From Olsenella profusa F0195 (GTDB lineage: Bacteria; Actinomycetota; Coriobacteriia; Coriobacteriales; Atopobiaceae), in contig NZ_AWEZ01000037.1 of the NCBI RefSeq assembly GCF_000468755.1, positions 1 to 56,908 on the forward strand: a stretch of 56,908 nt of DNA. Direction: 5' to 3'. The notes under the pieces were generated by a model. It saw only the letters and a list, made by a program, of their open reading frames with translations. It was not told the origin of the DNA and searched no databases. Shown here piece after piece: positions 11,451 to 48,097 of this stretch. Position 1 is the first letter of the stretch, and each line of letters begins with the position of its first letter. The position numbers and the translations under genes are program-made.

Positions 11451-11457
11451 GGCCATC

Positions 11458-24587: not shown

Positions 24588-24588
24588 G

Positions 24589-26554: not shown

Positions 26555-26559
26555 GATGC

Positions 26560-29220: not shown

Positions 29221-29459
29221 TGGGTCCTCCTCAAGACGTCCCATACTAAAAGTATTAATACAAACTTTTTGTTTGGTATATGCATCATGCGCCTTACGCA
29301 GGGCAGATTCAAGCGTTACAGGAGAACTCCCTGGCATTGCCCTGAGCGGCTCGCCTTGCGCCCCGAACGGCAGGTCCCTAACGGCAGGGCGGCATGTAGG
29401 GTCCGGCAGCGCCCGCCTTGGGCCTTGCAAGGGGCACGCCACACAGACCGCATGGGGAT
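29221..29459 (-). promoter_or_regulatory. ygeY promoter region with 15-bp palindrome
   Basis: The 239-base gap between the permease stop and ygeY contains an AT-rich core. CAAACTTTTTGTTTG at 29261-29275 is a palindrome of 5-base arms around T5. Reading the minus strand, TAGTAT (29248-29243) is a -10 candidate, placing the palindrome over the -35 region. A second small palindrome, ATACTTTTAGTAT on the minus strand, overlaps the -10. The exact 15-mer recurs, inverted, upstream of modA. An internal promoter under a repressor or activator is likely. Confidence 0.6.
29261..29275. promoter_or_regulatory. candidate operator, copy 1 (ygeY)
   Basis: CAAACTTTTTGTTTG. Exact reverse complement of the site at 47903-47917 upstream of modA. 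Not a recognised ModE, Rex or ArgR box. Confidence 0.6.
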
Positions 29460-30842
29460 CTACTTCGCACCCAGCTCCTCCTCTTCCCTGACATCTGCAC
29501 CACGCTCACCGTTGGGGTCTGGCAGTACGAGGTTGAGAGTGATGGCCACGAGCGTGGTGACGACGATGGCAGATCCGCCAAAGATGCTCGTGACCCAAGG
29601 GGGCATGTCGGCACCTCCTAGCGACCCCTTGACCATGGAGATGCCCATGCCCAGAGCGACGGACAGGCCAGCAATGCTCGCACGACGGTCGGTAAGCCCA
29701 CCCTTCGTGAGAATCCTGATGCCCGTCATGGTGATGGTGCCAAAGACGGAGATCGTTGCGCCGCCAATGACGCACATGGGGATAGTGTCCAGCAGGGCGG
29801 CGAACTTGGGAATGAGGCCACATGCGATGAGGATGCCCGCCGCGCAGGCGAAGACGCGCCTGTTGACGACCTTGGTCACCGTGGCGATGCCGACGTTCTG
29901 GGCGAACGTGGCCGTGGGCAGACCACCAAACAGGGCGCCTATCGTTGAGGCAATGCCCTCACAGAGGATGCCGCCGCGAATCTCCCCCAGCCTTGCCTCG
30001 CGACCAAGCGCACCGTTGGCAACGGCAGAGAAGTCGCCGATCATCTCGACGGCGGCAATGATGAACACTGCGCCGAGGGAGACCAGGGCATCCGGCTGAA
30101 ACTCGATGCCAAAGGGAAGGACCTTGGGCAGCGCTACCCAGGAGGCGTCTCCTAGGCCACCAAAGTTCACCATGCCGAGGGCAAACGACAGCGCATAGCC
30201 TACGAGCATGCCAAACAGCAGGGAGCCAAGCCTGAGCACACCCTTGCCAAAATTGCCGAAGATGATGCAGCACACCAGCGTGACCAGGGCGACAACCCAG
30301 TTTTGGGCGCTACCGAAGTCGGGGCTGCCCGTTCCTCCTGCCATGTAGCCAACAGCCACGGAGTAGAGCGACAGCCCGATGCAAAAGACCACCGTGCCCG
30401 TGACCACGGGTGGGAAGAGACGCTTGATCTGTCTGAGGAACACGCCAAACAGTATGGCCACAAAGCCACCCATAAACTGGGCCCCAATGATGGCGGCAAT
30501 GCCATACGTGCCACCAATGGTGTTAAGCACAGGAACGAACGCGAAGGAGGCTCCCGTAATGACAGGCAGTCCCGAGCCAATGCGGCCAAAGACGGGATGC
30601 GCCTGCAGCAGCGTCACGATGCCCGAAAACAGCATGGCGGACTGAATGAGCAGCGTACGTTCATCCGCCGGCAGGCTGCACGCGGAGCCAACGATGATGG
30701 CCGGTGTAATGATGCCCACAATGGCGGCGATAACATGCTGCAACGCGAGGGGGACGAAGAGCCTCGCCGGTGGCTTGCCATCTTGCCAAAACAGCTGACC
30801 GGTAGCATCGTCGGCCACCTTCCGCATCTTCTTTTCACTCAT
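29460..30842 (-). CDS. NCS2 family uric acid/xanthine permease
   Basis: A 460-residue membrane protein of the nucleobase-cation symporter-2 family with about 14 hydrophobic segments. It has the early [12 protein letters not shown] segment (the family's Gln-His motif) and the signature [19 protein letters not shown], with the conserved glutamate and aspartate. It belongs with the UacT/XanP/PbuX side of the family by context and motif, not clearly with uracil carriers. Lying between ygeX and ygeY, it probably imports uric acid or xanthine, the substrate of this locus. The exact purine is not decided by sequence. Confidence 0.92.
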
Positions 30843-30967
30843 GCCGATCCTCTCTCGTGTGTTGGGGGCAGTTGCCAGGCGCAGCCACCAGTAAGTGGCT
30901 CGCGTCCTCGGAGGGAGCGGGCTGTAAAGGCTCCCTGCAGCCCAGCCCGTCGTGCCCCCTCCCAGAC

Positions 30968-32182
30968 CTACTCACTTGCGTAGGCCCCGTCCCACACAAC
31001 CTCGCGGTAGCGGACAGGGTCGGTGTCGCCCTCCGTGGAGAACAGCAGCACCTGGGACCTGAGGCCCAACCCGAGCTCCTCACGCAGCTCGACGTAGGCA
31101 TCATCCTGCATGATGGTGGCGATCATACCCATGCCCACGGCACCAGACTCGCCCGACGTGATGGCAGGATCCCCTTTGACGGGCGCGGCAAGCATGCGCA
31201 TACCCTTGGCAGACGACCAGTCTGGGCAGGAGAGAAACGCGGAGACGTGGTTACGCAGAATGTCCCAACTGATCGTGTTGGGCTCGCCGCAGGCAAGGCC
31301 GGCCATGATGGTGCTGAGGTCTCCTCCCACGGTGCGTGGCTTGCCATCGGCGGCCCGTGCACCCTGATAGAGGCAGTCTGCCGCACTTGCCTCCATGGTC
31401 ACGAATGTGGGAGGGTCATCCGGGAAGAGGTTCGTGAAGTAGCCGACGACGGAGCCCGCGAGCGACCCCACGCCCGCCTGCACGAACACGTGGGTGGGAC
31501 GATTGACCCCAAGCTGCCTCAGCTGTTCGGCCGCCTCACTGGACATGGTGCCATACCCCTGCATGATCCAAGACGGAATCCTCTCGTATCCGTCCCAGGC
31601 GGTGTCCTGCACGACGACACCATGCTCCGTCTCGCCCGCCTCCTGTGCGACGAGGCGCACGCAGTCGTCGTAGTTGAGCTCCTCGATTGTAACCTCGGCG
31701 CCCTCCTTGGCGATGTTGTCGAAACGTGCCCTTGTCGATCCTCTGGGCATGCGCACCACTGCCCTCTGACCCAGCCTATGCGCCGCCCATGCCACCCCAC
31801 GGCCATGGTTGCCATCCGTTGCCGTAAAGAAGGTGGCACGACCAAAGTCCTGTGCCAGCTGGCCGGACGTCAGGTAGCCGAAGTCACATTCGCCTATGTC
31901 CCTGCCCGTCTCGTCAGCGATGTAGCGTGCCATAGCAAACGAGCCACCCAGCACCTTAAAGGCATTGAGGCCAAAGCGGTAGCTCTCGTCCTTCACATAG
32001 AGCCCACCCAATCCCAGGTGCTCCGCCATGCCCGTCAATCTCGCCAGAGGCGTCTCTGAGTACTGCGGGAAGCTCCTGTGGAAGCGCTGAGCCTCTCTTA
32101 CGCTGCCCAAGTCCATGATGGCAAGTCTCGTGTCCCCACTGCCGGGCATCCTGTTCATGGCCCATTCCATGCGTGGTCTCAT
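30968..32182 (-). CDS. ygeX: diaminopropionate ammonia-lyase
   Basis: A 404-residue PLP enzyme that converts 2,3-diaminopropionate to pyruvate and two ammonia. The PLP lysine is Lys76 in YRFGLNAFKVLGGS. TDGNHGRGVAWAA holds the phosphate-binding and active-site region, and AGVGSLAGSVVGYF the glycine loop. Length and motifs match the E. coli enzyme. In proposed anaerobic uric acid catabolism it is the last dedicated step, feeding pyruvate to central metabolism. ATG 32182 follows AGGAAAGGAT. It is 154 bases after the hydroxylase gene. Confidence 0.96.
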   Translation of the reverse strand: MRPRMEWAMNRMPGSGDTRLAIMDLGSVREAQRFHRSFPQYSETPLARLTGMAEHLGLGGLYVKDESYRFGLNAFKVLGGSFAMARYIADETGRDIGECDFGYLTSGQLAQDFGRATFFTATDGNHGRGVAWAAHRLGQRAVVRMPRGSTRARFDNIAKEGAEVTIEELNYDDCVRLVAQEAGETEHGVVVQDTAWDGYERIPSWIMQGYGTMSSEAAEQLRQLGVNRPTHVFVQAGVGSLAGSVVGYFTNLFPDDPPTFVTMEASAADCLYQGARAADGKPRTVGGDLSTIMAGLACGEPNTISWDILRNHVSAFLSCPDWSSAKGMRMLAAPVKGDPAITSGESGAVGMGMIATIMQDDAYVELREELGLGLRSQVLLFSTEGDTDPVRYREVVWDGAYASE

Positions 32183-32336
32183 GTCTACATCCTTTCCTGC
32201 CAGGCACTTGTGGCCTTGCGATTGGTGCCTACAGAGCACTCTGCCTTGCATCCCCTGAAGCGGGGCATAATCCGTTCGTACAGGCACACGCATGAGACGG
32301 TCGCACGTTGCCTGCATATGCCTGCCACCACGCCAT

Positions 32337-35120
32337 CTATGACACCGCCCTGCGGGACCTCTTTGCGTAGGGCGTATCGCGCAGGGGCAGCTCGGTGCGC
32401 AGCCGGCCATCAAGGCGCCTGTAGGCGTTCTGTAGTGCGCCGGCAGTGGGAATCGAGGAGATCTCTCCAATGCCCTTGCCACCGTATGCCACAGGCAGCA
32501 GGTGCTCCCCCTCCACATAGATGGCATGGATGTTGGGGATCTGCGTGGCCCGAAGCAGTCCCAACGTGCCAAAGCGCACCTTGGGGACACAGTCCTTGAG
32601 CACGAAGTCCTCCGTGAGCGCATAGCCCATGCTCATGAGCACGCCGCCCTCGATCTGGCCTTGGATGGCGGTGGGGTTTACCACCTTGCCGGAGTCATGC
32701 GCCGCATACACGTCGCTCACCTTGCCATCCTCATCGAGCACGGCAACCGTGGTGGCATAGGCATAGCAGATGTGGCTCTTGGGATTGGGCTTGTCGGCCC
32801 CCAGCCTATCCGTGGGCTCAAAGTACTCGTAGAAGAACTCACGGCCCTCGAGGGCGGCAAGGTCCTCCACAGGACGCATGGGATGGTGCCCCCTGCCGGC
32901 AATGAGCTCATCGGGGTCGGCCGACACGGGTGTACCATCCTCAAGCGTCGCCCTGATGCCATTCCCCTTCGCACGCAGGGGCGTCACGGGAAGTGTCCCG
33001 TCCCGCTCGTAGGCAAGCATGGCGTCACGCAGCAGGAAGGCTGCCCCACGCACGGACTCCCCCGTAATGACGGTCTGTCGCGAGCCCGAGGTCGTCCCCG
33101 AGTCTGGAGCATACTCCGTGGAGCACTCGCCATTCTCAATGAGGGATCTGGGCAGTCCCACGGCCTCCGCGACGTCCTGCAGGAAGATGGTGTTGCAGCC
33201 TTGTCCGACGTCGGACGTGGCCGAATAGATCACCACATGGCCGTGTTCGACCCGAAGCGTACAGCGTCCGGCGTCGGGCAGGCCAACGCCCACGCCCGCG
33301 TTCTTCATGGCGCAGGAGATACCGCACCTGTCAGCGTTCCGCTCATAGGCGTCCTTCACCGCCATGAGGGTCTCCTTGAGGGCCGTCGACTCATCGGCAA
33401 GCTGACCGTTGGGCAGGGCGTCACCCGGCTCGATCGCATTGCGATAACGCATCTCCCAGGTGCTGATGCCCACCTCGTCCGCAAGCAGGTCCATGAGGCA
33501 CTCGAGGGCAAACTCGCTCTGACATACGCCAAAGCCCCTGAACGCACCGGCAGGCGGGTTGTTGGTATAGTAGCCAAAGCCCCTGATGTCCGTGTTCTGA
33601 TACTTGTAGGGGCCTACGGCATGGGTGCAGGCGCGCTCCAACACGGGGCCGCACAGCGAGGCATAGGCACCGGTATCAAAGTTGATTTCGCAATCTAGGC
33701 CAGTGAGAATGCCATCCTCGTCGCAGCCAAGCGTAAATGTGGCCTCCATGGCATGGCGCTTGGGGTGGAAGTTGATGGATTCCTGACGGCTCAGCTTACA
33801 CTTGATGGTGCAGCCAAAGCGCAGGGCCGCTAGGGCGGCCACGTGCTGCACCGTGACGTCCTCCTTACCTCCGAAGCCGCCGCCCACCAGCGCGGTCTCG
33901 ACCACCACACGCTCTGGGGTGTCATCCCAGCCCAACATGTGGGCAACCTCCTTGCGCGTGTCGTAGGCCCCCTGGTCGGAGCTGATGATTTTGACGCCGT
34001 CCTCGTAGGGGAAGGCTATGGCGCACTCGGGCTCCAGGAAGGCGTGCTCCGTGAAGGGCGTCTTGAACGATTTGGTCACGACGTGAGCGGAGTGTGCCAG
34101 CGCCACCTTCGCATCCCCGCGTGTCACATGACGACTCTGACACACGTTATCGTGCAATTGCACGATCTTGCCAAAGGCAAGGAAGCTGTCGTGGATGAGC
34201 GGTGCCCCCTGAGCCTTGGCCTCTGCGATGCCTCGCACGGGCTCGAGGGGCTCATACGCTACCTTCACAAGCCTCTTAGCCCGCTCAAGCGTCCCCTCAT
34301 CCTTGGCGACCACGAGACAGATGGCGTCGCCCACACAGCGCGTGATGTCTCCCTCGGCAATGAAGACGTCCCAGTCCTGGATAAGGTGCCCCACCTGGTT
34401 GACGGGAACGTCCTTGGCCGTGAGCACGCCCACGACGCCGGGAAGCTCCTCGGCCTCACTCACATCGACGGACAGGACACGAGCGCGAGGATATGTGGAT
34501 CGAACGGCCGAGGCGTGACACATGTCCGGAAAGTCGAGCTCGTTGTAATCATCAGGATACTTGCCCGTGCCCAACACCTTGCAGCGCACATCCGCCCGAA
34601 AGGCCCGCTTGCCCACACCATAGTCGTCACCACGCTCGAGGGACCCGTCAATGGCCTCCTCGCCACGCAGGATCCTAGCGGCCAGCAAGATGCCCTCGAT
34701 GATCTTCTTGTAACCGGTGCAGCGACAGATGTTTCCCTTGATGGCCTGCTTGACCTCGTCCTCGGTGGGGCTGGGGTTCCTGCGCAAGAGGGCCGACCCG
34801 CTCATGACCATTCCCGGGGTGCAGAACCCGCACTGTACGGCACCCACCGTGCCGAAGGCATAGACAAAGGCCTCCCGCTCGTCGTGCGTGAGCCCCTCGA
34901 CGGTAAGGACTTCGCATCCCTGAAGCTGCTTGGTGGAGATGACGCAGCCCCTCTTGGCGACGCCATCTATGGCAACGGTACAGGTTCCACACGCCCCCTC
35001 GCTGCACCCGTCCTTCACGGATGTCAGGTGCAGGTCATCACGCAGGAAGCGCAGGAGTCGCTTGTTCTTTTGAGTCGACACCTTCGTGCCGTTGACGGTG
35101 AACGTGTAAGTCTCTGCCAT
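32337..35120 (-). CDS. xdhD: selenium-dependent xanthine dehydrogenase-like molybdenum hydroxylase (XdhD type)
   Basis: A 927-residue fusion of a two-[2Fe-2S] domain and a molybdopterin-binding domain. The plant-type cluster is C39-x4-C44-x2-C47-x11-C59, the second C97-x2-C100 and C132-R-C134. The molybdenum domain shows GGGFGGKEDVT, PPAGAFRGFG and SDVGQGCNT. There is no FAD domain, so electrons must leave through a partner, probably YgfK encoded upstream. The nearby yqeB and yqeC and the E. coli parallel indicate labile selenium at the molybdenum. ATG 35120 is the family start. It probably oxidises or reduces a purine ring. Confidence 0.93.
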   Translation of the reverse strand: MAETYTFTVNGTKVSTQKNKRLLRFLRDDLHLTSVKDGCSEGACGTCTVAIDGVAKRGCVISTKQLQGCEVLTVEGLTHDEREAFVYAFGTVGAVQCGFCTPGMVMSGSALLRRNPSPTEDEVKQAIKGNICRCTGYKKIIEGILLAARILRGEEAIDGSLERGDDYGVGKRAFRADVRCKVLGTGKYPDDYNELDFPDMCHASAVRSTYPRARVLSVDVSEAEELPGVVGVLTAKDVPVNQVGHLIQDWDVFIAEGDITRCVGDAICLVVAKDEGTLERAKRLVKVAYEPLEPVRGIAEAKAQGAPLIHDSFLAFGKIVQLHDNVCQSRHVTRGDAKVALAHSAHVVTKSFKTPFTEHAFLEPECAIAFPYEDGVKIISSDQGAYDTRKEVAHMLGWDDTPERVVVETALVGGGFGGKEDVTVQHVAALAALRFGCTIKCKLSRQESINFHPKRHAMEATFTLGCDEDGILTGLDCEINFDTGAYASLCGPVLERACTHAVGPYKYQNTDIRGFGYYTNNPPAGAFRGFGVCQSEFALECLMDLLADEVGISTWEMRYRNAIEPGDALPNGQLADESTALKETLMAVKDAYERNADRCGISCAMKNAGVGVGLPDAGRCTLRVEHGHVVIYSATSDVGQGCNTIFLQDVAEAVGLPRSLIENGECSTEYAPDSGTTSGSRQTVITGESVRGAAFLLRDAMLAYERDGTLPVTPLRAKGNGIRATLEDGTPVSADPDELIAGRGHHPMRPVEDLAALEGREFFYEYFEPTDRLGADKPNPKSHICYAYATTVAVLDEDGKVSDVYAAHDSGKVVNPTAIQGQIEGGVLMSMGYALTEDFVLKDCVPKVRFGTLGLLRATQIPNIHAIYVEGEHLLPVAYGGKGIGEISSIPTAGALQNAYRRLDGRLRTELPLRDTPYAKRSRRAVS

Positions 35121-35200
35121 GTTCCCATCCTCTTCTCTCGGTGTCACAGCCACCATGCGGCCGCCCTTCCCATGTCTGCGGGAGGCTCGCACGGCATGCA

Positions 35201-38191
35201 TCAGCTAAGTAGGTACGAATAGGTGTTCCGCACTGCGACGATGGTCTTACGGACCGACTCGGGCAGGCCGCATGAGAGGTCGTCCACATCGAAGGTGCCC
35301 TCATCGGCATCCACTCGCACGAGCATACCGCCCTCGGCAGGCAGGAAGCCCTCGTTGGTGGAGTCGTCGAAGTCCTCGCGGCTCCAGAAGAGCGTGAGCT
35401 TGTCCTTGTACGGGCGACCCTCGGAGTACGGGCAGAACACGGCGCAGTTGCCGCACTCGTTGCACATGCCATCCACGTGGACAATCTGGCGCTCGCGCAT
35501 GCCGGGTACGCGGACGGCCACATTGGCACGGTTGGGGCAGACCTCGCAGCAGATCTCGCACACGGTTGCGCAGCCAAGGCAGCGCGTGTGGGCAAGCGAC
35601 TGGACGTCGGCCTCGAGGCTGCCACGCGACACAAGCGACGACTCGTAGCTGGGGCCAACGTTGGACTCCCCCATGCCATCAAAGGAGGCGCCGGAGATGG
35701 CACGCGTGACGGTCATGGCATCGGCGATGGCCTTGACCACGGTAGCGGGGCCGCGGCGCGCATCGCCTACGGCAAAGACGTGCGGCACGCTGGTCTCGAG
35801 GGAGTCGCTCACCACGGGGCGGCCCTTCCCGTCAAGATCGCAGCCCGTTGCCAGGTAAAGCCCCTGCTCGATACGCTCGCCAACGGCGGTGATGACCGCG
35901 GTGGCGGGCACGCTCACGGTCTCGCCCGTAGGCTCGGGGGCGCGACGACCAGAGGCGTCCGGCGCGCCAAGGCGCATGACCTCGCAGGTCAGCACGCCGT
36001 TGGCAAGGTCGCCGGGCGAGAGGAGCTCCATGAGCTCCACGCCGTCCTCGAGTGCCATGACGAGCTCTTCCTCGTCGGCGGGCATGTAGCGGCGGGTACG
36101 GCGATAGACCAGGCGCAGGTGCTCGACGCCGGGCACGCGCTTGGCGGCACGCGCCACGTCCATGGCCGTGTTGCCACCGCCAATGACCACGACGTCGGTG
36201 CCAAGCCGGCATTGCGCAGGATCGTCCCTGAAGTCACGGAGGAAGTCGATGGCGTCGAGCGCCTCGCCGCTGCGGAGCGCCGGACGGCCTGACGCCCAAG
36301 CTCCAATGGCCACCACGACATCGCTAAACCCCTGGTCGAGAAGGTCGCGCGCGTTGGTGACCCCGACACCCGTCTTGAACGTGGCGCCATAGGCCGAGCA
36401 GAGCTCCACGTCGTGGTCGATGGCCTCGTCAGAGATGCGGAAGCCCGGGATCACATGGCGCACGATGCCACCGAGCTCACCGGTGCGCTCGAACACGGTG
36501 ACGTCGGCGCCCGCGCGAGAGAGGAACGATGCCGCGGCAAGGCCGGCGGGACCGGCGCCCACAACGGCAACCTTGCGATTGTCCACGGTGCCACGCGGGG
36601 AGAGCGTGGGAAGCACCTCGGCCAGGCCCTTCTCGGCAGCCAGGAGCTTGAACTCGCGGATGTGCACGTGCTCCTCGTAGTAGTTGCGCATGCAGGAGTC
36701 GCCGCAGGTATGCGGGCAGATGGTGCCCGTCGTGAAGGGCAGGGCGTTGCGCTCGAGGATGATGCGGAGGGCGTCGGCATAGCGGCCCTCCCCACAGGCG
36801 CGCAGGTAGCCCGGGATGTCCTGCTCGATGGGGCAATCCTCGCGGCAGGGTGCCGTGAAGCAGTCGATGAGCGGCAGGTCGTGGCCCACGTGGCGCTCGG
36901 GCATGGGCTTGACGGGCTTACGGTAGCGGGGGTTGGTGAGGGCGTCGTCCACGATGGTGGAAACCTTGGCGAGGTCAACGCGCGAGAACGGGGCGTCATC
37001 GATGCCGGAGAGAGACTCGTCAACCTGGACCAGGCGCTGGTAGCCACCCGGCTTGAGCAGCGTTGTCGCCATGGTGACCGGCCAGATGCCGGCGTCGACG
37101 AGCGCGCGGACGTTCAGCGCGTCCGCGCCGCCGGAGAAGGAGATGCGCAGGTGGCCCTCGAACTCGTCGGCGATGCGCTTGGCAAGCGAGATGGTGAGCG
37201 GGTAGAGCGAGCGGCCGGACATGTACATCTCGTCGCTGGGAAGCTCAAAGCAGGTGACGTCAACGGGGAAGGTGTTGGTGAGCTTGACGCCAAACTCCAC
37301 GCCGCACTCGGCTGCCAGGGCGATAAGGCGCCGGAGCATGGGTACGGCATCTGCCCATTGCAGATCCTCGTTGAAGTGGTGCTCGTCGAAGACGATGTAA
37401 TCGAAGCCCAGCGAGTCCAGGGTCTTGCGGGCATACTCGTAGCCCAGAAGCGTGGGGTTGCACTTGATGTAGGTGTTCAGGCCCTTCTCGGCGATGAGGT
37501 GCGTCGCGATGCGCTCGATCTCTGCGGGCGGGCAACCGTGAAGCGTGGACTCGGTAACCGAGCGGGACACATGCGGCGAGATGGAGTCGACAAAGGCGGC
37601 GTCAACGTTCTGGAAGCGATCGAGGTTGGCCTTGGCCCAGGCAATGGCCTCCTGGAAGACGGGGGTGTCTGAGGCATCCTTCATGCTGTCGATGTAGGTG
37701 TCGACCTTCTCGCCCTTGATGCCCTCAAGGTCGTAGCCAACCGACATGTTGAAGACAAAGCCATCCGGGTCGCCCAAGTCGAACTCGCGCGCGAGGAGCT
37801 TGCAGGCAACCCAGGCCTTGACGTACTCATCAAAGGCATCGGGTACGGTGAGCTCGGTGGACCACTCGCAGTTGTAGCCCTCATCGGCTGCGAGGATGCA
37901 GGGCTTGTTCACGCAGGCGGAAAGTTCGGCACCATCCATCTTCTGGACGGTCTTGAGCTCGAAGAAGCGGGCACCGGTAACGTAGGAGGCGATGATGTTC
38001 TGGGCAAGCTGGGTGTTGGGGCCCGCCGCCGGCCCAACGGGCGACTCGACCCTCTCGCCAAAGATGGGACGGGCATGACCGCCGAGCTTGGCAAGGCGAG
38101 ACTCGCCAAAGACGGTTCCCTGGGCCTTCTTCTCGGTTAGGATCCAGTCCATGAGCTGGTCGAACGGAATGGGGCGCATGATGTCGCTCAT
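35201..38191 (-). CDS. ygfK: YgfK, FAD/Fe-S oxidoreductase of purine catabolism (putative selenate reductase subunit)
   Basis: A 996-residue protein: an N-terminal TIM-barrel, dihydroorotate-dehydrogenase/glutamate-synthase-like half (about 1-420), a GltD-like Fe-S helical domain with CREDCPIEQDIPGYL (about 443), an FAD/NAD(P) pair of Rossmann folds (VVGAGPAGLAAASFLS near 543, VVIGGGNTAMDVAR later) and a C-terminal 4Fe-4S region rich in CxxC motifs (CLGCATVCEICCEVCP, CNECGNCAVFCP; about 870-925). It is annotated in E. coli as a selenate reductase subunit, but genetics in gut anaerobes place it in uric acid use. ATG 38191 follows GGAGAGG. Confidence 0.94.
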   Translation of the reverse strand: MSDIMRPIPFDQLMDWILTEKKAQGTVFGESRLAKLGGHARPIFGERVESPVGPAAGPNTQLAQNIIASYVTGARFFELKTVQKMDGAELSACVNKPCILAADEGYNCEWSTELTVPDAFDEYVKAWVACKLLAREFDLGDPDGFVFNMSVGYDLEGIKGEKVDTYIDSMKDASDTPVFQEAIAWAKANLDRFQNVDAAFVDSISPHVSRSVTESTLHGCPPAEIERIATHLIAEKGLNTYIKCNPTLLGYEYARKTLDSLGFDYIVFDEHHFNEDLQWADAVPMLRRLIALAAECGVEFGVKLTNTFPVDVTCFELPSDEMYMSGRSLYPLTISLAKRIADEFEGHLRISFSGGADALNVRALVDAGIWPVTMATTLLKPGGYQRLVQVDESLSGIDDAPFSRVDLAKVSTIVDDALTNPRYRKPVKPMPERHVGHDLPLIDCFTAPCREDCPIEQDIPGYLRACGEGRYADALRIILERNALPFTTGTICPHTCGDSCMRNYYEEHVHIREFKLLAAEKGLAEVLPTLSPRGTVDNRKVAVVGAGPAGLAAASFLSRAGADVTVFERTGELGGIVRHVIPGFRISDEAIDHDVELCSAYGATFKTGVGVTNARDLLDQGFSDVVVAIGAWASGRPALRSGEALDAIDFLRDFRDDPAQCRLGTDVVVIGGGNTAMDVARAAKRVPGVEHLRLVYRRTRRYMPADEEELVMALEDGVELMELLSPGDLANGVLTCEVMRLGAPDASGRRAPEPTGETVSVPATAVITAVGERIEQGLYLATGCDLDGKGRPVVSDSLETSVPHVFAVGDARRGPATVVKAIADAMTVTRAISGASFDGMGESNVGPSYESSLVSRGSLEADVQSLAHTRCLGCATVCEICCEVCPNRANVAVRVPGMRERQIVHVDGMCNECGNCAVFCPYSEGRPYKDKLTLFWSREDFDDSTNEGFLPAEGGMLVRVDADEGTFDVDDLSCGLPESVRKTIVAVRNTYSYLLS

Positions 38192-38305
38192 TGCGATTCC
38201 TCTCCAGAAACGCATTTCCGTGGGGACGTGAGGCGCGCGCGGCGCCACGGGATCCGCGCACGTCATGGCAGTGGCGCCCGAAGGATGCCACTGCCGGAAA
38301 GACAC

Positions 38306-39661: not shown

Positions 39662-40314
39662 AGGGCCTCTCCTCCTTGCCACATGCCGCAGATCAGCTAC
39701 GGCCCAACCTGTGTTCGCCGCGGCCCTCTCATGCCGTGACGGCCGGGCGTTACGCGAACGCGACTGCACCACATGGGCACCCGACTACCCAGTTGCAAAT
39801 GAAGCGCAGGTACAGGGCATTCCCCCCATGACCTCTCCCTGTGAATCACCCATCTGGCGATTCCTCGCACATCTTGTAATAGAACCTGACAAACATTTTG
39901 CTTCAAAATTGCGTCTACCGCATCGCGGTCTGTAAAACATCGGCGTACGGTCGATTGCCGGTGTGGGCGGTAACGTTATATTTTTCGATGTACAACGTGG
40001 GCTCAAAGCGTCCATCGCAAGACACGTTGCTTGGCTGAATCCAATTTCTAACTGGATTTGTTCTCGGCAATACGATGACGGCATTGGCACCGTCAAGCGG
40101 CGGTGCCAATGCCGCCCATCCTATCACGTGCGTCTTCCTCTTAGGTCTTTGTCAGATAATGGCTCGCCCTTACATTTCGTTAGGATTTAGGTGCTAGTAT
40201 GTGCTAGATGCTGACCTCCCCGTCCGTGCGTGACCGTACCTCACGGCTTGGTTCGACACGCCGAAAGGGTGCGCGGCCGATGGACGAGACTCGTCATGGA
40301 GGGATCAAGGACAT
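39662..40314. promoter_or_regulatory. divergent control region between ssnA and the YheO-like regulator
   Basis: About 650 bases without a credible gene, and AT-richer than the flanks between 39880 and 40060. It contains CAAACATTTTGCTTC at 39890-39904, matching the ygeY/modA palindrome at 12 of 15 bases; AATCCA/TGGATT arms near 40040; and a strong hairpin at 40080-40113. On the plus strand TAGTAT (about 40195-40200) is a possible -10 for the regulator gene. The layout, a regulator divergent from the operon, suggests that its product acts here. Confidence 0.5.
40080..40113. promoter_or_regulatory. 13-bp perfect hairpin between ssnA and regulator
   Basis: Arms GGCATTGGCACCG (40080-40092) and CGGTGCCAATGCC (40101-40113) pair perfectly around an 8-base loop. 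No T-run follows on either strand, so it is more likely an operator or mRNA leader structure than a terminator. Confidence 0.55.
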
Positions 40315-40965
40315 ATGAAGAAGTCAGAGGTCGAGTTCCTCTCTCGCCTTGCAAGGGGCATCGCTGCGCAGTTTGGAAGCAACTGCGAGGTTGTCGTCCA
40401 CGACCTTGAGGCCAAAGACCCTGACAGCACCATCGTGGCAATAGAGAACGGCCAGGTCTCGGGCAGAAAGCTCGGCGACGGCCCATCGAACGTGGTCCTC
40501 AAGGCCCTGAGCTCCGACCCCGATAGGCTCCAGGATCGCTTTGCCTACCACACACGTACCGAGGACGGACGCGAACTGCGGTCGAGCACGGTGTTCTTTC
40601 GCGATGAGACCGGCAAGCCGGTGGCCATCTTCGCCATCAACTATGACTCCACGCCCATCATGGCGCTCCAGAACATGCTCAAGGACTTCACCTCGCTTGC
40701 CAGTACTGCCTCGGACGAGCCAGACGTAATCCCCCACAACGTGAACGACCTTCTCGATGAGCTCATCGACCAGAGCGTGCGCGTGGTGGGCAAGCCCGTG
40801 GCACTCATGACCAGAGATGACAAGGTCAAGGCAATAGGCTTTCTCAACGATTCCGGCGCTTTTCTCATCACCAAGGCCGGGCAGAAGGTCTGCAACTGCT
40901 TTGGCATCTCAAAGTACACGCTGTACAGCTACATGGACGAGGCCAAGTCACACGAGAAGGAGTAG
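40315..40965 (+). CDS. YheO-like PAS/HTH transcriptional regulator
   Basis: A 216-residue regulator with an N-terminal YheO-like PAS domain (about 5-115; CEVVVHDLEAKD, PVAIFAINYD) and a C-terminal helix-turn-helix (about 165-212; AGQKVCNCFGISKYTLYSYM). Relatives sense small molecules and include regulators of amino acid metabolism. Standing divergently from ssnA, it is the best candidate for the controller of the purine run, and perhaps of the shared 15-bp site. ATG 40315 follows GAGGGATCAAGGA. Whether it activates or represses cannot be told. Confidence 0.85.
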   Translation: MKKSEVEFLSRLARGIAAQFGSNCEVVVHDLEAKDPDSTIVAIENGQVSGRKLGDGPSNVVLKALSSDPDRLQDRFAYHTRTEDGRELRSSTVFFRDETGKPVAIFAINYDSTPIMALQNMLKDFTSLASTASDEPDVIPHNVNDLLDELIDQSVRVVGKPVALMTRDDKVKAIGFLNDSGAFLITKAGQKVCNCFGISKYTLYSYMDEAKSHEKE

Positions 40966-40969
40966 ACGC

Positions 40970-41425: not shown

Positions 41426-41486
41426 GGGGATGCCGGGCAAAAGATGCGCAGGCGGCGCAGCCAAGAAAAGCCAGGCCGCCTGCGTC

Positions 41487-42026
41487 CTAGTGCCCTTCTG
41501 CCGCGCAGTCCGCCTGCCCACCGCGCAGCATCTCGATCCCGTGCGCGATGGGCCCGATGACTGCGGAAACGTTCTCGATTGCGGCCTTGGGGCTCCCCGG
41601 CAGGTTCACCACAAGCGTGCGGTCCAGGATGCCAGCCACCTCGCGCGAGAGGCAGGCATGCGGCGTGATGGCCATCGAGGCAGCACGCATGGCCTCGGGG
41701 ATCCCTGGCGCCATGCGCGTGCACACGGCCGCGGTCGCCTCGGGCGTCACGTCGCGTGGCGAGAGGCCCGTGCCACCCGTGGTGAGGACGAGCGCCGCGT
41801 CCCGCTCTGCCGCCGCCCTGATAGCCGCCTCTATCTGTGGCTGCTCATCGGGCACCACGCGCGTTGCCACCACGCGGTAGCCCCTCTCGCCGAGAAGCGC
41901 TACGAGCGCCGGCCCAGAGGCGTCCTCGCGCTCTTTGCGCGAGCAGCGGTCGCTCACAGTAATCACAACTGCCGTGTAGGCCTCACTTGCTGTAGCCTGC
42001 TGCTTGTCTGTCTCGCCATGGCTCAT
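41487..42026 (-). CDS. mog: MogA/MoaB-family molybdopterin adenylyltransferase
   Basis: A 179-residue protein of the MoCF-binding family that adenylylates molybdopterin before molybdenum insertion. It has ITVSDRCSRKEREDASGP, LTTGGTGLSPRDVTPEA and LVVNLPGSPKAAIEN. ATG 42026 follows TAGGAG with a short spacer; the upstream MoeA-like gene ends 5 bases before it. It is the last gene of the molybdenum operon. A decayed relative lies at 19427-19870. Some MoaB proteins share these motifs, so Mog versus MoaB is not certain. Confidence 0.9.
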   Translation of the reverse strand: MSHGETDKQQATASEAYTAVVITVSDRCSRKEREDASGPALVALLGERGYRVVATRVVPDEQPQIEAAIRAAAERDAALVLTTGGTGLSPRDVTPEATAAVCTRMAPGIPEAMRAASMAITPHACLSREVAGILDRTLVVNLPGSPKAAIENVSAVIGPIAHGIEMLRGGQADCAAEGH

Positions 42027-42031
42027 GGCTC

Positions 42032-43105
42032 CTACTTTCCAAACGGGCACACGGGGAAGGTGCAGGGCTCGCAGCGCAGGCACAGGCCGCCCTCGCCCAG
42101 TTGCACAACGTCGCGACGACGCACTTCCACACCGGCCGCAATGCGAGGCAGCACCAGGTCAAAGACCGTAGCAGCACTGTACATGACGCAGCCTGGCAGA
42201 CCCACCACGGGCACCGCGCGCGGCTCGCCAGCAGCATCGCTCTCGTCAAAGTAGCCCACGAGAAGCATCGCGCCCGGCAGGACCGGCGCGCCATAGGTCA
42301 CGATGCGCGCACCCGCACGCTTGATGGCGCCGGGGGTGTTGTCATCCGGGTCAACGCTCATGCCACCCGTGCACACAACCATGTCGACCCCGGTCTCTCG
42401 CGCCTCGCCTATGGCCGCCACCAGCGCGTCCACATCGTCGCCGGGCGTGGCGTGCCAGGTCGTCTTGATGCCGTAGCGTGCGAGCTTGGCCTCCACCACA
42501 GGGGTGAAGCGGTCCTCGATAAGGCCCTTGGCCACCTCGGATCCCGTGGCGATAATGGCCGCCGTCCCCAGGCGCCACGGCTCCACGCGCATGAGCGGGC
42601 CCATCTTCTCGATGTCTGCCGCGCGCTCTGCCACCTCGACCACAGACTCCCTCACGACCAGCGGGACCACGCGTGTGCCAGCAAGGTCGTCGCCTGCGGA
42701 TACGGCAAAGCCGCCCTTGCGCGTGGCGATCATGACCTCCTCGCAGCCGTTTACGGCCACAAGCCGCTCCGAGTCGGCGAGGTAGACACCGTCGTGCGCG
42801 GCCTTGATGCCGATCTTGCCCTCGCGAGGCTCGCCCGACGCCACGCAGCCCGGGCCCAGGCAGAGCGCGGCCAGACGGCGGGCGGCGTCGTCCTCGTGGA
42901 GCATGCCGGATCCGGCCTCCCACACGTAGAGGTGCTCCTTGCCCATGGAGAGCAGCACCGGCACATCCTCGGCCGTGACCACGTGGCCCTTCTTGAAGCG
43001 AGGTCCCTTGTAGCGCGGCGAGCCCCTGCCGTCACCGGGCAGAATCTGGGTCATGTCGTGGCACAGCACGTGCCCGATGGCGTCCTCGGTCTTAACAAGC
43101 CTCAT
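42032..43105 (-). CDS. MoeA-like molybdopterin-binding protein with Cys-rich tail
   Basis: A 357-residue protein whose C-terminal half holds the MoeA/Mog-type domain ([45 protein letters not shown]). The N-terminal part is shorter than in classical MoeA. The C-terminus carries cysteines in [16 protein letters not shown], unusual for MoeA and suited to metal binding. It probably inserts molybdate into adenylylated molybdopterin, or serves the hydroxylase specifically. Its ATG overlaps the stop of the moaC/MOSC gene by 4 bases, and mog follows. Confidence 0.87.
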
Positions 43106-44064
43106 GCCAGCTCGCCCTCTCCCATCACGCGAACCTCGTCACCGGCGCGCACGGCTCCACCGCGCGTCACCACGCAGAAGACGCCGTCGGTGGGCATCAC
43201 GCACATGCCCGTAAGGCGCCGTATCTCGCAATCGTTGTGGCAGGCCTTGCCGATCTGCGTCACCACCATGCGGGCGGGGCCCACGGCAAGCGTGGTGCCC
43301 ACGGGCAGGCTCTTGACGTCGATCCCCTGCGTGAGCACGTTCTCGGCAAAGTCCCCCGGCGCAAGCTCGATGCCCTTGGCGCGCATGAGGTCCACGGACT
43401 CGTTGGCGAGAAGGCTCACCTGGCGGTGCCAGCCGCCAGCGTGAGCGTCGCCCTCGATACCCTTGCCCACCTTGAGCTCGATAGCGTCAACGGCCTGCTT
43501 GCGCGTGCCCTTCTTCTCGGATATGCAGGTGGCAACCACGGTGCCGTGTAGCAGAGACGCCGTGTCAGCCTCCGTTGCTGCCGCGGGATCGTCGCCCGCG
43601 GCCCGCACGAAGTGCCCGGATTTGCCGCCGTCCTTCTCAAGCAGGCGCACCCCGGTGATGACCATGTCGCGCTGGTGCGCCTTGCACATGTCGTAGATCG
43701 TGAGACCCGTGACCGAGGCGGCCGTGAGCGCCTCCATCTCGACGCCCGTCTCGCCACAGCAGCGCGTGGTTGCCGTGAAGGCGATGCCGCCCTTCTCGTA
43801 TGAGAACGACACGTCGACGCCCGTGAGCTGGATGGGGTGGCACATGGGCACCAGCTCCCAGCAGCGCTTTGCGGCCATGATGCCCGCCACCTGTGCCACG
43901 GCGAGCACGTCACCCTTGCTGATGCCGCCTGTGCGCACCAGCTCCAGCGTATCGGGCCGCATGAGGACCCTGCCCGCTGCGCGGGCGACCCTCTGCGTCT
44001 TTGGCTTGGCGGACACGTCCACCATGCGGGCGCGTCCCTCCCCGTCGAAGTGCGTGAGCCCCAT
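43102..44064 (-). CDS. moaC: MoaC-MOSC fusion protein
   Basis: A 320-residue protein with two domains. Residues about 1-160 are MoaC, cyclic pyranopterin monophosphate synthase ([48 protein letters not shown]). Residues about 175-320 are a MOSC domain ([31 protein letters not shown]), related to molybdenum cofactor sulfurases. It would make the pterin precursor and perhaps act on the finished cofactor. The start lies 3 bases after the moaA stop, and the stop overlaps the moeA-like start, so the operon is tight. Confidence 0.92.
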
Positions 44065-44067
44065 GGC

Positions 44068-45015
44068 TCAGCCCCCTATCTCGTTCATGGGTCGTGCGGA
44101 GTCGCTCGCACGACCGTCGTCCATCCTGTGCCCCCGCGGCTTTGACGCGATGCCGCCTCGCATGGCCTCCACCAGCTCCTGGCCGGTAAGCCCGCGAAGA
44201 TCGACCTCGACCGAGGAGTGAAGGCACGGCTTCAGGCGACCGTCCGCCGTCACGCGGATGCGGTCGCAGCTCGAGCAGAACCTGTGCGTCACGGATCGTA
44301 TGAGCCCAACGTTACCACGCCAGCCGGGGGCATGGTACAGCTCCGAGACGCCCTCCTTGCCAACGGAGGCAAGCTCGGGCACGGCATCTAGTACCGCATC
44401 GGCAGAGACGAAGCATCCCTTGGGCCACCGGGCGCACGCTCCCATGCGCATGAGCTCGATGAAGCGCACTGTAAGGTCGTGGTCGCACGCGAGAAGCGCC
44501 ATGGTACGAAGCTCGTCGTCGTTCACGCCGCCCACGAGCACGCAGTTGACTTTGGTGTTCGAGAAGCCCGCTTCATGCGCAGCCTCGAGCCCCGCAAGCG
44601 CGTCCACAAGCGAGTCCCGCCGCGTGATGCGCGCGTAGCGCTCGGCATTGAGCGTGTCGAGGCTTACGTTGAGACGGGTGAGCCTCGCAGCTCGCAGGTC
44701 TTTCGCCACGGGTGCAAGCAGCGTGGCGTTGGTGGTCATGTCCACCTCTTCGATGCCAGGAACAGCGGCGACCATGCCCACGAGGTCCACGATGCCGCGC
44801 CTCACCAGGGGCTCGCCGCCCGTGAGACGCACCTTTTGCACACCCAGGGACGCCGCTGCGGCAACAATGCCGCGCATCTCCTCGAACGAGAGGATGTCGG
44901 CGCGCGACAGCATGGGCACGCCATGCTCGGGCATGCAGTAGATGCAGCGGCAGTTGCAGCGGTCCGTTACGGAGAGGCGCAGGTAGCGTATGTCACGGCC
45001 AAAGTCGTCATGCAT
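44068..45015 (-). CDS. moaA: GTP 3',8-cyclase
   Basis: A 315-residue radical SAM enzyme for the first step of molybdopterin synthesis. The N-terminal cluster is C20-x3-C24-x2-C27 (TDRCNCRCIYC), followed by LTGGEPLVRRG; the C-terminal cluster is in FCSSCDRIRVTADGRLKPC, and the chain ends in the conserved Gly-Gly. ATG 45015 overlaps the end of modC by 8 bases. No moaD or moaE (molybdopterin synthase) gene is in the window, so these must lie elsewhere in the genome. Confidence 0.95.
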   Translation of the reverse strand: MHDDFGRDIRYLRLSVTDRCNCRCIYCMPEHGVPMLSRADILSFEEMRGIVAAAASLGVQKVRLTGGEPLVRRGIVDLVGMVAAVPGIEEVDMTTNATLLAPVAKDLRAARLTRLNVSLDTLNAERYARITRRDSLVDALAGLEAAHEAGFSNTKVNCVLVGGVNDDELRTMALLACDHDLTVRFIELMRMGACARWPKGCFVSADAVLDAVPELASVGKEGVSELYHAPGWRGNVGLIRSVTHRFCSSCDRIRVTADGRLKPCLHSSVEVDLRGLTGQELVEAMRGGIASKPRGHRMDDGRASDSARPMNEIGG

Positions 45016-46129
45016 GAGGCGCGTCCTCCGTGGCGACCTTGGCGTTGCCAGCCTCCTGCGAAGCGGCTCCAAAGACGAGCGGCATGACCTTCTCGGGAGC
45101 AATGCCAAGCGTGACCTGGGTCGGGTTTCCCAGACTGGCCCACATGTCCTTGTCGCACTCATAGCGCAGCAGCGCGCCCGCAGGGGTCCTTGCCATCACG
45201 ATGGTTGAGAACGTGGAGTCAATCACACGGTCCACCTCGCAGGGGATTGCGTTTGGTCCGGGGTGCAGGCCCGGCATGGTGGTGAAGTAGTGCGCACGGA
45301 TTCCCACGTGGGAGACGTCTCCGGAACAGGGTAGTGACGTGGCAAGCGTGACGCCCCAGTCATCGCAGGCAAGCGCGCCGGCCTCGCCCGCCACGCGCGC
45401 ACGGCTCACGTTCTTGCAGCCGCTGATCAGGGCCGCCGCCACGCTGGCGGGGGCACCGAAGAGCGAGTGCACGCTCACCTTGGCGTCAGAGCGGCCGTGG
45501 TCAAGCACGCAGACCGTATCGCACATGCGATAGACCTCGTCGCGGTTGTGCGAGACGTACACCGCACCGCCCGGGAATCCGCGTAGGACATCTGCCAGCT
45601 CAAGCTCAAGCTGCCAGCGCAGATAGCCGTCAAGTGCCGAGAAGGGCTCGTCCAAGAGGACGAGCTCTGGGTCGCTCGCAAGGATGCGTGCCATGGCGCA
45701 GCGCTGCTGCTGCCCGCCAGAGAGCTCGCGCGGGCGGTGGCGCTCGAGGCCATCCAGGCGCATGGCCGCCATCTCGCGCCTCGCGCGGACAAGACGCTCC
45801 TCCCTCGTGGCGCCAAAGGCACCGGAGAGCACGTTCTGCTCGACCGTCATGGTTGGGAAGAGGGCATAGCTCTGGAAGAGGTAGCCCACGTGGCGCCTCT
45901 GCGGTGGAAGGTCTACCTTTGCCTCGCTGTCAAAGAGCGTGCGTCCACCCAGCACGATGCGGCCGGCGTCTGGCCGCTCGATGCCCGCAATGCACCTGAG
46001 CGTCATGGACTTGCCACAGCCCGATGGCCCCAGAAGGGCCATGATCTCTTCCGGCCGCTCCAGGGAGAACGAGACGCCCAGCGTAAAGCCACGCAGACGC
46101 TTCTCGATGTCGACTTCCAAGACCGTCAT
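45008..46129 (-). CDS. modC: molybdate ABC transporter ATP-binding protein
   Basis: A 373-residue ABC ATPase with Walker A GPSGCGKSMT, Q-loop LFQSYALFPTMT, signature LSGGQQQR and Walker B LVLLDEPFSALDG. The C-terminal third (from about 235) is a TOBE/Mop-like domain that may bind molybdate and regulate transport. Its ATG overlaps the modB stop (ATGA). It powers import through ModB, with ModA as receptor. By sequence alone tungstate or sulfate carriers are close, but the following cofactor genes make molybdate the natural substrate. Confidence 0.93.
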   Translation of the reverse strand: MTVLEVDIEKRLRGFTLGVSFSLERPEEIMALLGPSGCGKSMTLRCIAGIERPDAGRIVLGGRTLFDSEAKVDLPPQRRHVGYLFQSYALFPTMTVEQNVLSGAFGATREERLVRARREMAAMRLDGLERHRPRELSGGQQQRCAMARILASDPELVLLDEPFSALDGYLRWQLELELADVLRGFPGGAVYVSHNRDEVYRMCDTVCVLDHGRSDAKVSVHSLFGAPASVAAALISGCKNVSRARVAGEAGALACDDWGVTLATSLPCSGDVSHVGIRAHYFTTMPGLHPGPNAIPCEVDRVIDSTFSTIVMARTPAGALLRYECDKDMWASLGNPTQVTLGIAPEKVMPLVFGAASQEAGNAKVATEDAPHA

Positions 46130-46812
46130 GATGCCGCCCCCGCTCGCGCCGCGACCGAGCGCTGATGACCCTCAAAGAGGTTGAGGGCGAGCAGCACCAC
46201 GGCGCTTATCGCAAGGTTCACAAGGACCCACTGGAAGGCCTGCGCGTCATCTCCCGTGCGCCACAGCTGGTAGACCGTCGTGGAGATGGTGGCCGTGGAC
46301 CCCGGCGTGTAGCCGGCAATCATGGAGGTGGCGCCATACTCGCCCAGCGCGCGGGCGAAGGCCAGAACGGAGCCAGCGATGATCCCCTGCCTGCAGCAGG
46401 GCATCTTCACGCGCCAGAACACCCAGGCATTCGACTTGCCCAGCGTGCGCGCAGCGTTGGCGAGGCTCTGGTCAAAGCTCTCGAAGGCGCCACGCGCCGT
46501 GCGGTACATGAGCGGGAAGCTCACGACCACAGTGGCGAAGATGGCCGAGTACCACGTCATGGTGAGCTTGATGCCAAGGGTGGAGAGCACCCAGGCGCCC
46601 ACGGGACGCCTGGGACCGAGAAGCATCAGCAGCATGTATCCCACGACGGTGGGCGGCAGCACCAGGGGAAGGGTGAGGACGACGTCGAGCACGCCCTTCA
46701 CCACGCGGTGAGCATGGGCCACCACATCTGCGAGCCACACGCCGAGGAGAAACACCACCACCGTCGAGGTGGCGGCAATCCTCAGCGAGTTAAGGAGTGG
46801 GTACCAGTCCAT
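46126..46812 (-). CDS. modB: molybdate ABC transporter permease
   Basis: A 228-residue permease starting MDWYPLLNSLRIAATST with about five membrane segments. LPLVLPPTVVGYML is typical of ModB, and the EAA coupling loop is seen in ARTLGKSNAWVFWRVKMP, followed by ARALGEYGATSMIAG. It begins 7 bases after the modA stop and overlaps modC by 4 bases. It forms the channel of the molybdate importer. Confidence 0.94.
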   Translation of the reverse strand: MDWYPLLNSLRIAATSTVVVFLLGVWLADVVAHAHRVVKGVLDVVLTLPLVLPPTVVGYMLLMLLGPRRPVGAWVLSTLGIKLTMTWYSAIFATVVVSFPLMYRTARGAFESFDQSLANAARTLGKSNAWVFWRVKMPCCRQGIIAGSVLAFARALGEYGATSMIAGYTPGSTATISTTVYQLWRTGDDAQAFQWVLVNLAISAVVLLALNLFEGHQRSVAARAGAAS

Positions 46813-46819
46813 GGCAAGG

Positions 46820-47707
46820 CTATGCCTCGGCAAGCGGCGTGAAGCCGACCTTCTCGAAGCAATCGCTTGCGTCCTTCGTCTTGAGGAAGTCGAGGAAGGA
46901 CTTGGCAAGGTCGGGCTCGGGCGCTGCCTTCGTGGCTGCTGCGGGATAGACCACGCGGCCGCACATCTCCTCGGTGGCCTCGTCGACCATCGTGAGGCTG
47001 GCGGAGGTGGCATCGGTCTTGTAGATGACGCCACAGTCGACGGTGGCCTCAAAGATCTGCGAGCTGACCTCCTTCACATTGCTGCCGTAGGTGATGCAGC
47101 CGGCGTTGGCAAGCTCCGTCTCGTCGAGGTTGTAGTATGCAAGGATCCTCTGGGTGTACTGGCCCACGGGGACGTCTGAGTTGCCCATGCAGAGAAGGAC
47201 ATCGTGTGCCTGGAGCTTGGATGCCATGTCATCGAAGTTCTGGACGGCCTTGGGGTTGCCGTCGGGCACGCAGAGCGTGACCTTGTTCTCGAGGATGTCG
47301 AAGCGGGTGGCGTGGTCGATGCAGTCGAGGCCCTCGTCGTTGCCGGATGCGGCCTGGGCATCGAGCTGGTTCATCTGCTTCTGGCCCGCAGAGATGAAGG
47401 CGTCGCAGTCTGCACCCTCCTGGATCTGCTTCTTGAGGGTGCCCGAGGAATCAAAGTCGAAGCTGATGTCCACGCCATCGTTGGCGGTCTTGAAGAGGCC
47501 GCCGGCCTCGGTGAGCGACTCGGTGAGCGATGCGGCCGCAAAGACGGTGAGCGTCCTTGCCTCTGCCGCAGACGTCGTATCCGTTGTGGCCGAGCTGGTC
47601 GACTGAGCGGACTGCGACTGCGTGCCTCCGCATGCCGCCAGCCCGAGGCCTGCCGCGACGACTGCCACCGACACAAACGAACGCCTGGTAACGCTTGTTC
47701 CTGCCAT
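46820..47707 (-). CDS. modA: molybdate-binding lipoprotein
   Basis: A 295-residue substrate-binding protein. The N-terminus has a twin-arginine-like TRRSF, a hydrophobic stretch and a lipobox ending at Cys26 (GLAAC), so it is probably a lipoprotein exported by Tat or Sec. The mature protein has VFAAASLTESLTEAG, FDFDSSGTLKKQI, and SDVPVGQYTQRIL, the usual ModA oxyanion-binding landmarks. ATG 47707 follows AGGGAAGG. It heads a seven-gene molybdenum operon. Half of a decayed paralogue survives at 19870-20235. Confidence 0.95.
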   Translation of the reverse strand: MAGTSVTRRSFVSVAVVAAGLGLAACGGTQSQSAQSTSSATTDTTSAAEARTLTVFAAASLTESLTEAGGLFKTANDGVDISFDFDSSGTLKKQIQEGADCDAFISAGQKQMNQLDAQAASGNDEGLDCIDHATRFDILENKVTLCVPDGNPKAVQNFDDMASKLQAHDVLLCMGNSDVPVGQYTQRILAYYNLDETELANAGCITYGSNVKEVSSQIFEATVDCGVIYKTDATSASLTMVDEATEEMCGRVVYPAAATKAAPEPDLAKSFLDFLKTKDASDCFEKVGFTPLAEA

Positions 47708-48097
47708 GATGCCTTCCCTTCCCTCGGTGTAGTGCCTGCCTGGGGTGCATCTCTGAGGCGATGCCTTCTTGCGTGCCGCCCATGTGGTGCCTGTGGACTT
47801 CACCGCCAAGAACGCGAGGCCTTGCTAACGCCGGAGAATGATCGCCCCGCGTCAGCAGCCTGCCCACGAACGGCGTTCTTGCTTACAAACTATAACGCCG
47901 TTCAAACAAAAAGTTTGGGAAAGGTGGCAGACGGAGAAGTTGCGGCGCAGGCGGTGGGGCCATAGCAGGGCGGGGTGAACGACAGTTCCTGAAGCCACCT
48001 TGGCAAACCCCACGATGCGAACACATCGGCAACGTATACTGTCTTCCTGGCTTACTTACTGCGAGGTACCTTGGCAAGAGACTCGAGAGGAAAACCC
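47708..48097. promoter_or_regulatory. divergent region modA/galE with molybdenum-operon promoter
   Basis: For modA (minus strand) TATAGT at 47894-47889 is a -10 candidate, giving a leader of about 175 bases. The exact 15-bp palindrome (47903-47917) covers its -35 region. A 10-bp inverted repeat, GAACGGCGTT (47868-47877) and AACGCCGTTC (47894-47903), brackets the start of transcription. For galE (plus) TATACT at 48035-48040 is a -10 candidate, and GAGAGG precedes the ATG. I could not fit the known molybdenum-cofactor riboswitch pattern to the leader by eye. Confidence 0.55.
47903..47917. promoter_or_regulatory. candidate operator, copy 2 (modA)
   Basis: CAAACAAAAAGTTTG, the exact reverse complement of the site at 29261-29275 in front of ygeY, lying over the predicted -35 region of modA. 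Confidence 0.6.

Follow-up and report, generated by a model that had tools for sequence, protein, structure and literature searches.

A stretch of 56,908 nucleotides from Olsenella profusa F0195 (contig NZ_AWEZ01000037.1, here called the window) carries a cluster of genes for anaerobic purine and uric-acid breakdown, a molybdenum operon, and yheO, a gene for a YheO-like protein. An exact 15-bp palindrome, CAAACTTTTTGTTTG, occurs twice in the window, at 29261-29275 on the plus strand and at 47903-47917 on the minus strand. The former copy lies upstream of ygeY and the latter upstream of modA, and a related sequence precedes yheO. The genes and sites concerned are the following.

20345..27813, minus strand: ygeW, arcC, the gene of a ModE-MocA fusion, hydA (dihydropyrimidinase), yqeB and xdhC
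27838..29220, minus strand: ygeY, encoding a selenium-linked hydrolase of anaerobic uric-acid breakdown
29242..29256, minus strand: second, weaker palindrome, AATACTTTTAGTATG, located downstream of operator 1 at a distance of 19 bp and corresponding to the tandem copy that relatives have at 20 bp
29261..29275, minus strand: candidate operator 1, which reads CAAACAAAAAGTTTG in the direction of ygeY and closely follows the inferred -10
29284..29312, minus strand: inferred ygeY promoter, with -35 TTGAAT (29307-29312), a spacer of 17 bp and -10 CATGAT (29284-29289)
29460..39661, minus strand: pbuX, ygeX, selenium-dependent xanthine dehydrogenase, ygfK and ssnA
39890..39904, plus strand: weak match (12/15) upstream of ssnA, its palindrome not kept in relatives
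40169..40183, plus strand: candidate operator 3, CTTACATTTCGTTAG, upstream of yheO
40315..40965, plus strand: YheO-like regulator of 216 amino acids (PAS_6 and HTH_22 domains), the proposed binder
41487..47707, minus strand: molybdenum operon with modA, modB, modC, moaA, moaC-MOSC, a MoeA-like and a MogA/MoaB-like gene
47903..47917, minus strand: candidate operator 2, CAAACTTTTTGTTTG toward modA, over the -35 position of the modA operon promoter

The two identical palindromes had been pointed out in a sequence-only reading of the window, and a sequence scan bore them out. That reading judged a chance origin unlikely and proposed a search for unrelated copies elsewhere. Dinucleotide shuffles of the window contained on average 0.10 matches at up to three mismatches, none of 100 shuffles reached three, and the own genome (2.72 Mb) has the exact 15-mer at 29261 and 47903 only. 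Among the 74 repeated exact 15-mers of the window, many of which come from overlapping runs, only the palindrome has perfect 5+5 arms, and no other contains ten or more A/T. The relaxed pattern CWWAC-N5-GTTWG (W = A or T) is found at seven distinct places in the genome, three of them in the window, upstream of ygeY (29261), yheO (40169) and modA (47903). Counted on both strands, it gives ten genome matches and the reversed control also ten, so it is the clustering and not the number that stands out. The site upstream of yheO had been missed in the earlier inventory. Relatives carry CTAACAATTTGTTAG, CTTACATTTTATTAG or CTTACATTCAATAAG in its place, and in the window it is followed by a -10-like TAGTAT at 40195-40200, as judged by eye. 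The match upstream of ssnA, which the same inventory had listed, is present at 39890-39904; however, it is not significant alone, because the genome holds 15 places at up to three mismatches to the 15-mer against six for the reversed control. Since relatives do not keep it as a palindrome either, it was dropped as an operator. Two further palindrome-like matches, 24 bp apart, lie outside the cluster at 53043-53081 and score 13.1 and 6.5 with a position weight matrix (PWM) of the site, which includes the window's own sites and makes the scan of the window circular.

Comparison of genomes is the basis for the site itself, for its conservation and gene neighbourhood, and for its position relative to the -10. 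The sequence-only reading had left it to be checked whether the site persists in related genomes that keep the operons, and it does, so that neither this check nor the search for unrelated copies refuted the proposal. The family contains 46 exact copies in 37 of 140 genomes, compared with none for the reversed control. Among 396 genomes sampled from the class, f3 was the only other family with the exact site, which 22 of its genomes carry. All 22 of these sites were inspected; the gap between the divergent yheO and ygeX genes holds 20 of them, and the other two precede pbuX-ssnA-ygfK. Over all loci analysed, the exact site has 56 distinct contexts as defined by 60-bp flanks: ygeY (17), ygeX and yheO (14), pbuX and yheO (10), ygeX (7), pbuX (3) and modA (5). 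Every one of the 56 is beside a regulon gene (ygeY, ygeX, pbuX, modA or yheO), and none is elsewhere.

The relaxed site CWAACNAAAWGTTWG occurs at 84 places in 53 of the 140 family genomes, 38 of them beyond the exact ones. A regulon gene stands beside 79 of the 84, and the five places without one (G031, G038, G048 contig 42, G056 at 1016420 and G087) equal in number the total of the reversed control. Six relaxed sites were given to ygeX by coordinates alone (G095, G096, G097, G106, G112 and G052 at 2446). The regulon count also includes G091, G092 at 6642 and G113, where the site is beside a xanthine-dehydrogenase-like gene of 27-28% identity, as well as the site on contig 75 of G048, just after a xanthine dehydrogenase gene. 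The two-mismatch sites on contig C61 (L003, L004) were assessed by inspection of open reading frames only and were counted for no gene. In three g33 genomes (L295, L296 and L298) a relaxed site adjoins a second xanthine-dehydrogenase-like gene (27-28% identity), which is possibly a further regulon member. Where g33, g27 and g28 genomes lack the exact site, the yheO upstream region still contains a match at up to three mismatches in 15 of 20 cases. In Flavonifractor and its relatives the palindrome CTAAAAAATTTTTAG precedes yheO, often with a partner 20 bp away; the statistical support for it is marginal.

The candidate binder of the site is the YheO-like regulator. The protein scores 122.1 bits with PF08348 PAS_6 (cut-off 27) and 68.3 bits with PF13309 HTH_22 (cut-off 29.6), and the own genome encodes no other PAS_6 protein. 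The yheO gene is present in 67 of the 140 family genomes, including all 37 with the exact site. The site stands directly before yheO in 10 g33 genomes and mostly in the yheO-ygeX gap in f3. This is the usual layout of a self-regulating local regulator and points to YheO. Among 42 named loci with a yheO relative, including Flavonifractor and a few Bacillota and Planctomycetota contigs, ssnA or ygeY neighbours it in 37; two loci (L113, L126) break off too near the gene to show its neighbours, and three distant ones (L150, L152, L153) show neither neighbour. The C-terminal motif ISKYxxYxY has its I, S, K and three Y residues identical in 30 of 30 aligned homologues, which are 41-94% identical to the window protein. 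Taken together, the position of the site, the adjacency of yheO and the co-occurrence support the earlier suggestion of one regulator, possibly the YheO-like protein, for both operons. From these sequence comparisons, the element CWAAC-N5-GTTWG, in its commonest form CAAACAAAAAGTTTG, is probably the operator of the YheO-like PAS-HTH protein in the local regulation of purine and uric-acid genes. The co-occurrence of yheO and the cluster would also allow YheO to be a passenger, with the site bound by another regulator encoded elsewhere. We consider this very unlikely, as only two exact copies exist genome-wide, which speaks for a local regulator, and the site keeps its place in the yheO-ygeX gap (20 of 22 f3 genomes) and before yheO (g33).

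A search with the YheO sequence found no relative in the PDB at E-values up to 0.1. The AlphaFold model of the protein has a mean predicted local distance difference test score (pLDDT) of 79.3 and a predicted template modelling (TM) score of 0.49. Foldseek matched this model to PAS/LOV domains and weakly to chains of the PAS-HTH protein VqmA, including a DNA complex, with TM-scores of 0.23-0.28, a fold-level analogy and not family membership. These matches say nothing about the ligand.

A consensus promoter scan of the window listed no promoter at either exact palindrome. Upstream of ygeY and ygeX in relatives, the flanks diverge while the palindrome and the promoter persist. The usual order is TTGNNN, 16 bp, a TNTAAT- or TATANT-like -10, 7-10 nt and the palindrome. 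Within the family, 7-10 nt separate the end of the -10 from the palindrome in 21 of 22 non-redundant ygeY/ygeX/pbuX contexts, the exception being L050; these counts and those of the tandem copy given below exclude contexts at least 75% alike in their flanks and those at contig ends. In the spacing of the -35, pbuX of G053 departs from the usual order by having no TTG there, and the window by its 17-bp spacer. The inferred ygeY promoter is weak by itself and was placed via comparison with the relatives. Given the distance of 7-10 nt, the ygeY/ygeX site is therefore at about +1 to +16. As judged from this spacing, it covers the transcription start and not the -35. A degenerate second copy follows 20 bp beyond the palindrome, with a mean match of 6.77/10 against a background of 4.44 (standard deviation 0.54) and at least 8/10 in 17 of 30 contexts; no such partner was found at modA sites or at g33 yheO sites. 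The sequence-only reading had placed the palindrome over the -35 of both minus-strand promoters, which holds by eye for modA, where it sits at the -35 position 8 nt upstream of TATAGT (47889-47894), but not for ygeY.

The location just after the ygeY/ygeX start, together with the 5-7 bp stem and A5 loop that the sequence could form, would suit an element acting as RNA, namely a 5′ leader hairpin serving as an attenuator or an RNA-protein site. This explanation is extremely improbable. We dropped it because the palindrome at modA is reversed and precedes the -10. In g33, moreover, a -10-like sequence follows the site before yheO (by eye), and no Rfam match was obtained at the palindrome. It is also conceivable that YheO binds the site and activates instead of repressing. 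The modA promoter has no recognisable -35, and the Flavonifractor candidate site appears by eye to lie upstream of a -35-like sequence; both would fit activation. We regard it as unlikely, since the site at ygeY/ygeX comes after the -10 and since CfiR, a relative that has been characterised, is reported to repress (PMC4519771).

A second regulator that could act on these promoters is encoded within the cluster. The ModE-MocA fusion and three boxes of the ModE type are located as follows.

22422..22445, plus strand: ModE-type box, CGTCATATTTTCTGAAACATAACG, between yqeB and yqeC
22490..23215, plus strand: yqeC
24589..25566, minus strand: fusion of the DNA-binding part of ModE with MocA, proposed reader of the ModE boxes
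39974..39997, plus strand: ModE-type box, CGTTATATTTTTCGATGTACAACG, between ssnA and yheO
47874..47897, minus strand: ModE-type box, CGTTATAGTTTGTAAGCAAGAACG, over the modA -10

The pattern CGTYATAKTTT-N9-AACG has three matches in the own genome at up to one mismatch, all in the window, and none in the reversed control; as it was derived from the same three boxes, the count shows only the absence of a fourth. The boxes imperfectly resemble the E. coli ModE consensus (CGNTATATA-N6-TATATANCG), which is quoted as ATCGNTATATA-N6-TATATANCGAT in PMC545781. Within the fusion, the ModE part matches TIGR00637 with an E-value of 2.6e-16 and 59.5 bits, short of the curated cut-off (98.5), and the C-terminal part matches the MocA-type family TIGR03310 with 114 bits, below its cut-off of 186.45. 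The domain matches include no C-terminal molybdate-binding domain. Because its C-terminal part matches MocA-type families, the protein is not a classical full-length ModE. The fusion is likely to be the reader of the ModE boxes, and it probably acts through a box other than the palindrome. The alternative, that the fusion or another molybdate regulator binds the palindrome and that the shared signal is molybdate and not purine, is highly improbable. It would fit the presence of modA among the targets and of the fusion gene in the same cluster at the ygeX/ygeY loci read far enough. However, a separate, E. coli-like ModE-type box exists three times in the genome, all in the window and distinct from the palindromes; the window's ygeY promoter has the palindrome and no ModE box; and the location of the palindrome, before yheO in g33 and within the yheO-ygeX gap of f3, speaks against a molybdate regulator. 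Beside the ModE box in the yqeB/yqeC gap, a weak extra palindrome, AAGACTTTTAGTAAG, was noted at 22467-22481 (PWM score 10.8).

A modA relative is present in 43 of the 140 family genomes. The site precedes it in the own species (G000, G002) and, exactly or with one mismatch, in all eight g34 genomes: G114, G117, G118, G120 and G121 have the exact form, and G115, G116 and G119 have CATACTTTTTGTTTG. Both g28 genomes carry a variant in the interval from xdhC to modA, about 140 bp before modA and about 0.5 Mb from ygeY, and G052 and G053 contain three-mismatch forms before modA. Just downstream of xdhC, the window retains a decayed modA fragment (19862-20035) that is 62% identical, with 26 bp (19887-19912) identical to the intact modA at 46959. 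This suggests that the mod operon, now by yheO, once stood there. It may have gained the putative operator on moving. The surrounding region, 19500-20250 on the minus strand, holds the modA remnant and, by eye, a MogA-like remnant, and is the usual place of the mod operon in relatives.

Several observations weigh against YheO as the common regulator of these operons. The presence of yheO is confounded with that of the purine cluster, in which the ModE-MocA gene also lies. No match at up to three mismatches was found in 5 of the 20 yheO upstream regions of g33, g27 and g28 genomes without the exact site. Outside Coriobacteriia, 14 of 17 yheO upstream regions give only p values of 0.005-0.065 with the PWM, and three (L145, L146, L150) are without a site; the 17 regions are related and not independent, and the motif test is weak. 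The degenerate second copy 20 bp beyond the palindrome was scored with a consensus written after the copies were inspected. With respect to molybdenum, 18 of 24 modA upstream regions tested are without a match at up to three mismatches. In 16 genomes of 12 genera, chosen because modA shares the strand of ygeY and lies 8-17 kb (35 kb in G026) downstream of it, modABC comes after yqeB-xdhC and has no site of its own. Among the 16 are G001 and G004, the two other ygeY-carrying genomes of the own genus. The modA link is absent in most other genera. The suggestion of the sequence-only reading that the regulator ties cofactor supply to purine breakdown is retained for the own species, g34 and g28, but not for most other genera. 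On the distribution of the sites, the molybdenum link is supported but lineage-limited.

We propose the following mechanism, in which the binding by YheO, the dimer, the repression, the ligand and the consequence for molybdenum are what we infer. A dimer of the YheO-like protein would bind each 15-bp palindrome. At ygeY and ygeX it would occupy the transcription start, where a second copy often follows at a distance of 20 bp, or two helical turns, and at modA and yheO it would occupy the -35 region. The protein would most likely repress until a purine-derived ligand, for which xanthine or urate is our guess, binds the PAS domain, and it would repress its own gene as well. Repression and purine release are suggested by the position of the site and by the precedent of CfiR (PMC4519771). 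As the molybdenum-uptake/cofactor operon of this lineage has the same candidate operator, supply of the cofactor would be released at the same time as xanthine dehydrogenase and the enzymes of the breakdown. The ModE boxes at modA, ssnA/yheO and yqeB/yqeC may add separate molybdate control.

Further features of the window were recorded. Two genes are fusions, MoaC-MOSC (43102-44064) and the ModE-MocA gene (24589-25566). Following yheO, an apparent broken remnant of an M20-type hydrolase was recognised by eye at 40969-41425 on the plus strand; relatives such as L112 (10932-11849) have in its place a homologue about 28% identical to ygeY. A flavin mononucleotide riboswitch lies at 11305-11452 on the plus strand (Rfam RF00050, 101.6 bits).

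YheO-like regulators are already known as a kind. CfiR, a YheO-like PAS6-HTH protein of Campylobacter jejuni, is reported to repress its neighbour gene (PMC4519771). It shares the PAS_6 and HTH_22 architecture with the protein described here, whereas here purine and molybdenum genes are concerned and a defined 15-bp palindrome occurs at several operons. The word "binding" does not occur in the main text of the CfiR paper, and no operator seems to be given there (PMC4519771). Like the E. coli ModE regulon, the window has an imperfectly similar box at modA and a ModE-like DNA-binding part, below its cut-off, encoded in the cluster. In contrast to it, the regulator is fused to MocA and not to molybdate-binding domains, boxes are also found at ssnA/yheO and yqeB/yqeC, and the palindrome is a separate element. 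The genes ygeX, ygeY, ygeW, ygfK, ssnA, hydA and xanthine dehydrogenase correspond by family match to the anaerobic reductive uric-acid cluster (PMC12507026). In that article, uric-acid gene regulation across gut bacteria is called poorly understood, "transcription factor" occurs 0 times, and a Crp site is given between ygeV and ygeW of E. coli (PMC12507026). Our literature search found no report of this operator and regulon for YheO-like regulators, and among the matches listed for YheO/DauR regulators none is on purine regulation by its title. The matches listed for the domain family include the CfiR article and a Streptomyces article citing it.

Bacterial uric-acid breakdown in the gut is of interest for gout. 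The analysis provides a candidate regulator, its putative operator sequence and target promoters, and a prediction of where the site should lie with respect to the transcription start. We give about even weight to the broader proposition that anaerobic purine breakdown in two Coriobacteriia families, perhaps also in Oscillospirales, has one PAS-domain purine sensor as its master switch, and that molybdenum uptake is kept under the control of this sensor via the shared cluster or, where the mod operon has been separated, via a gained operator. If this is true, a catabolic substrate sensor would govern the supply of the metal on which its key enzyme depends. The findings suggest that, besides molybdate sensing, a substrate-sensing regulator can link the uptake of molybdenum to purine catabolism.

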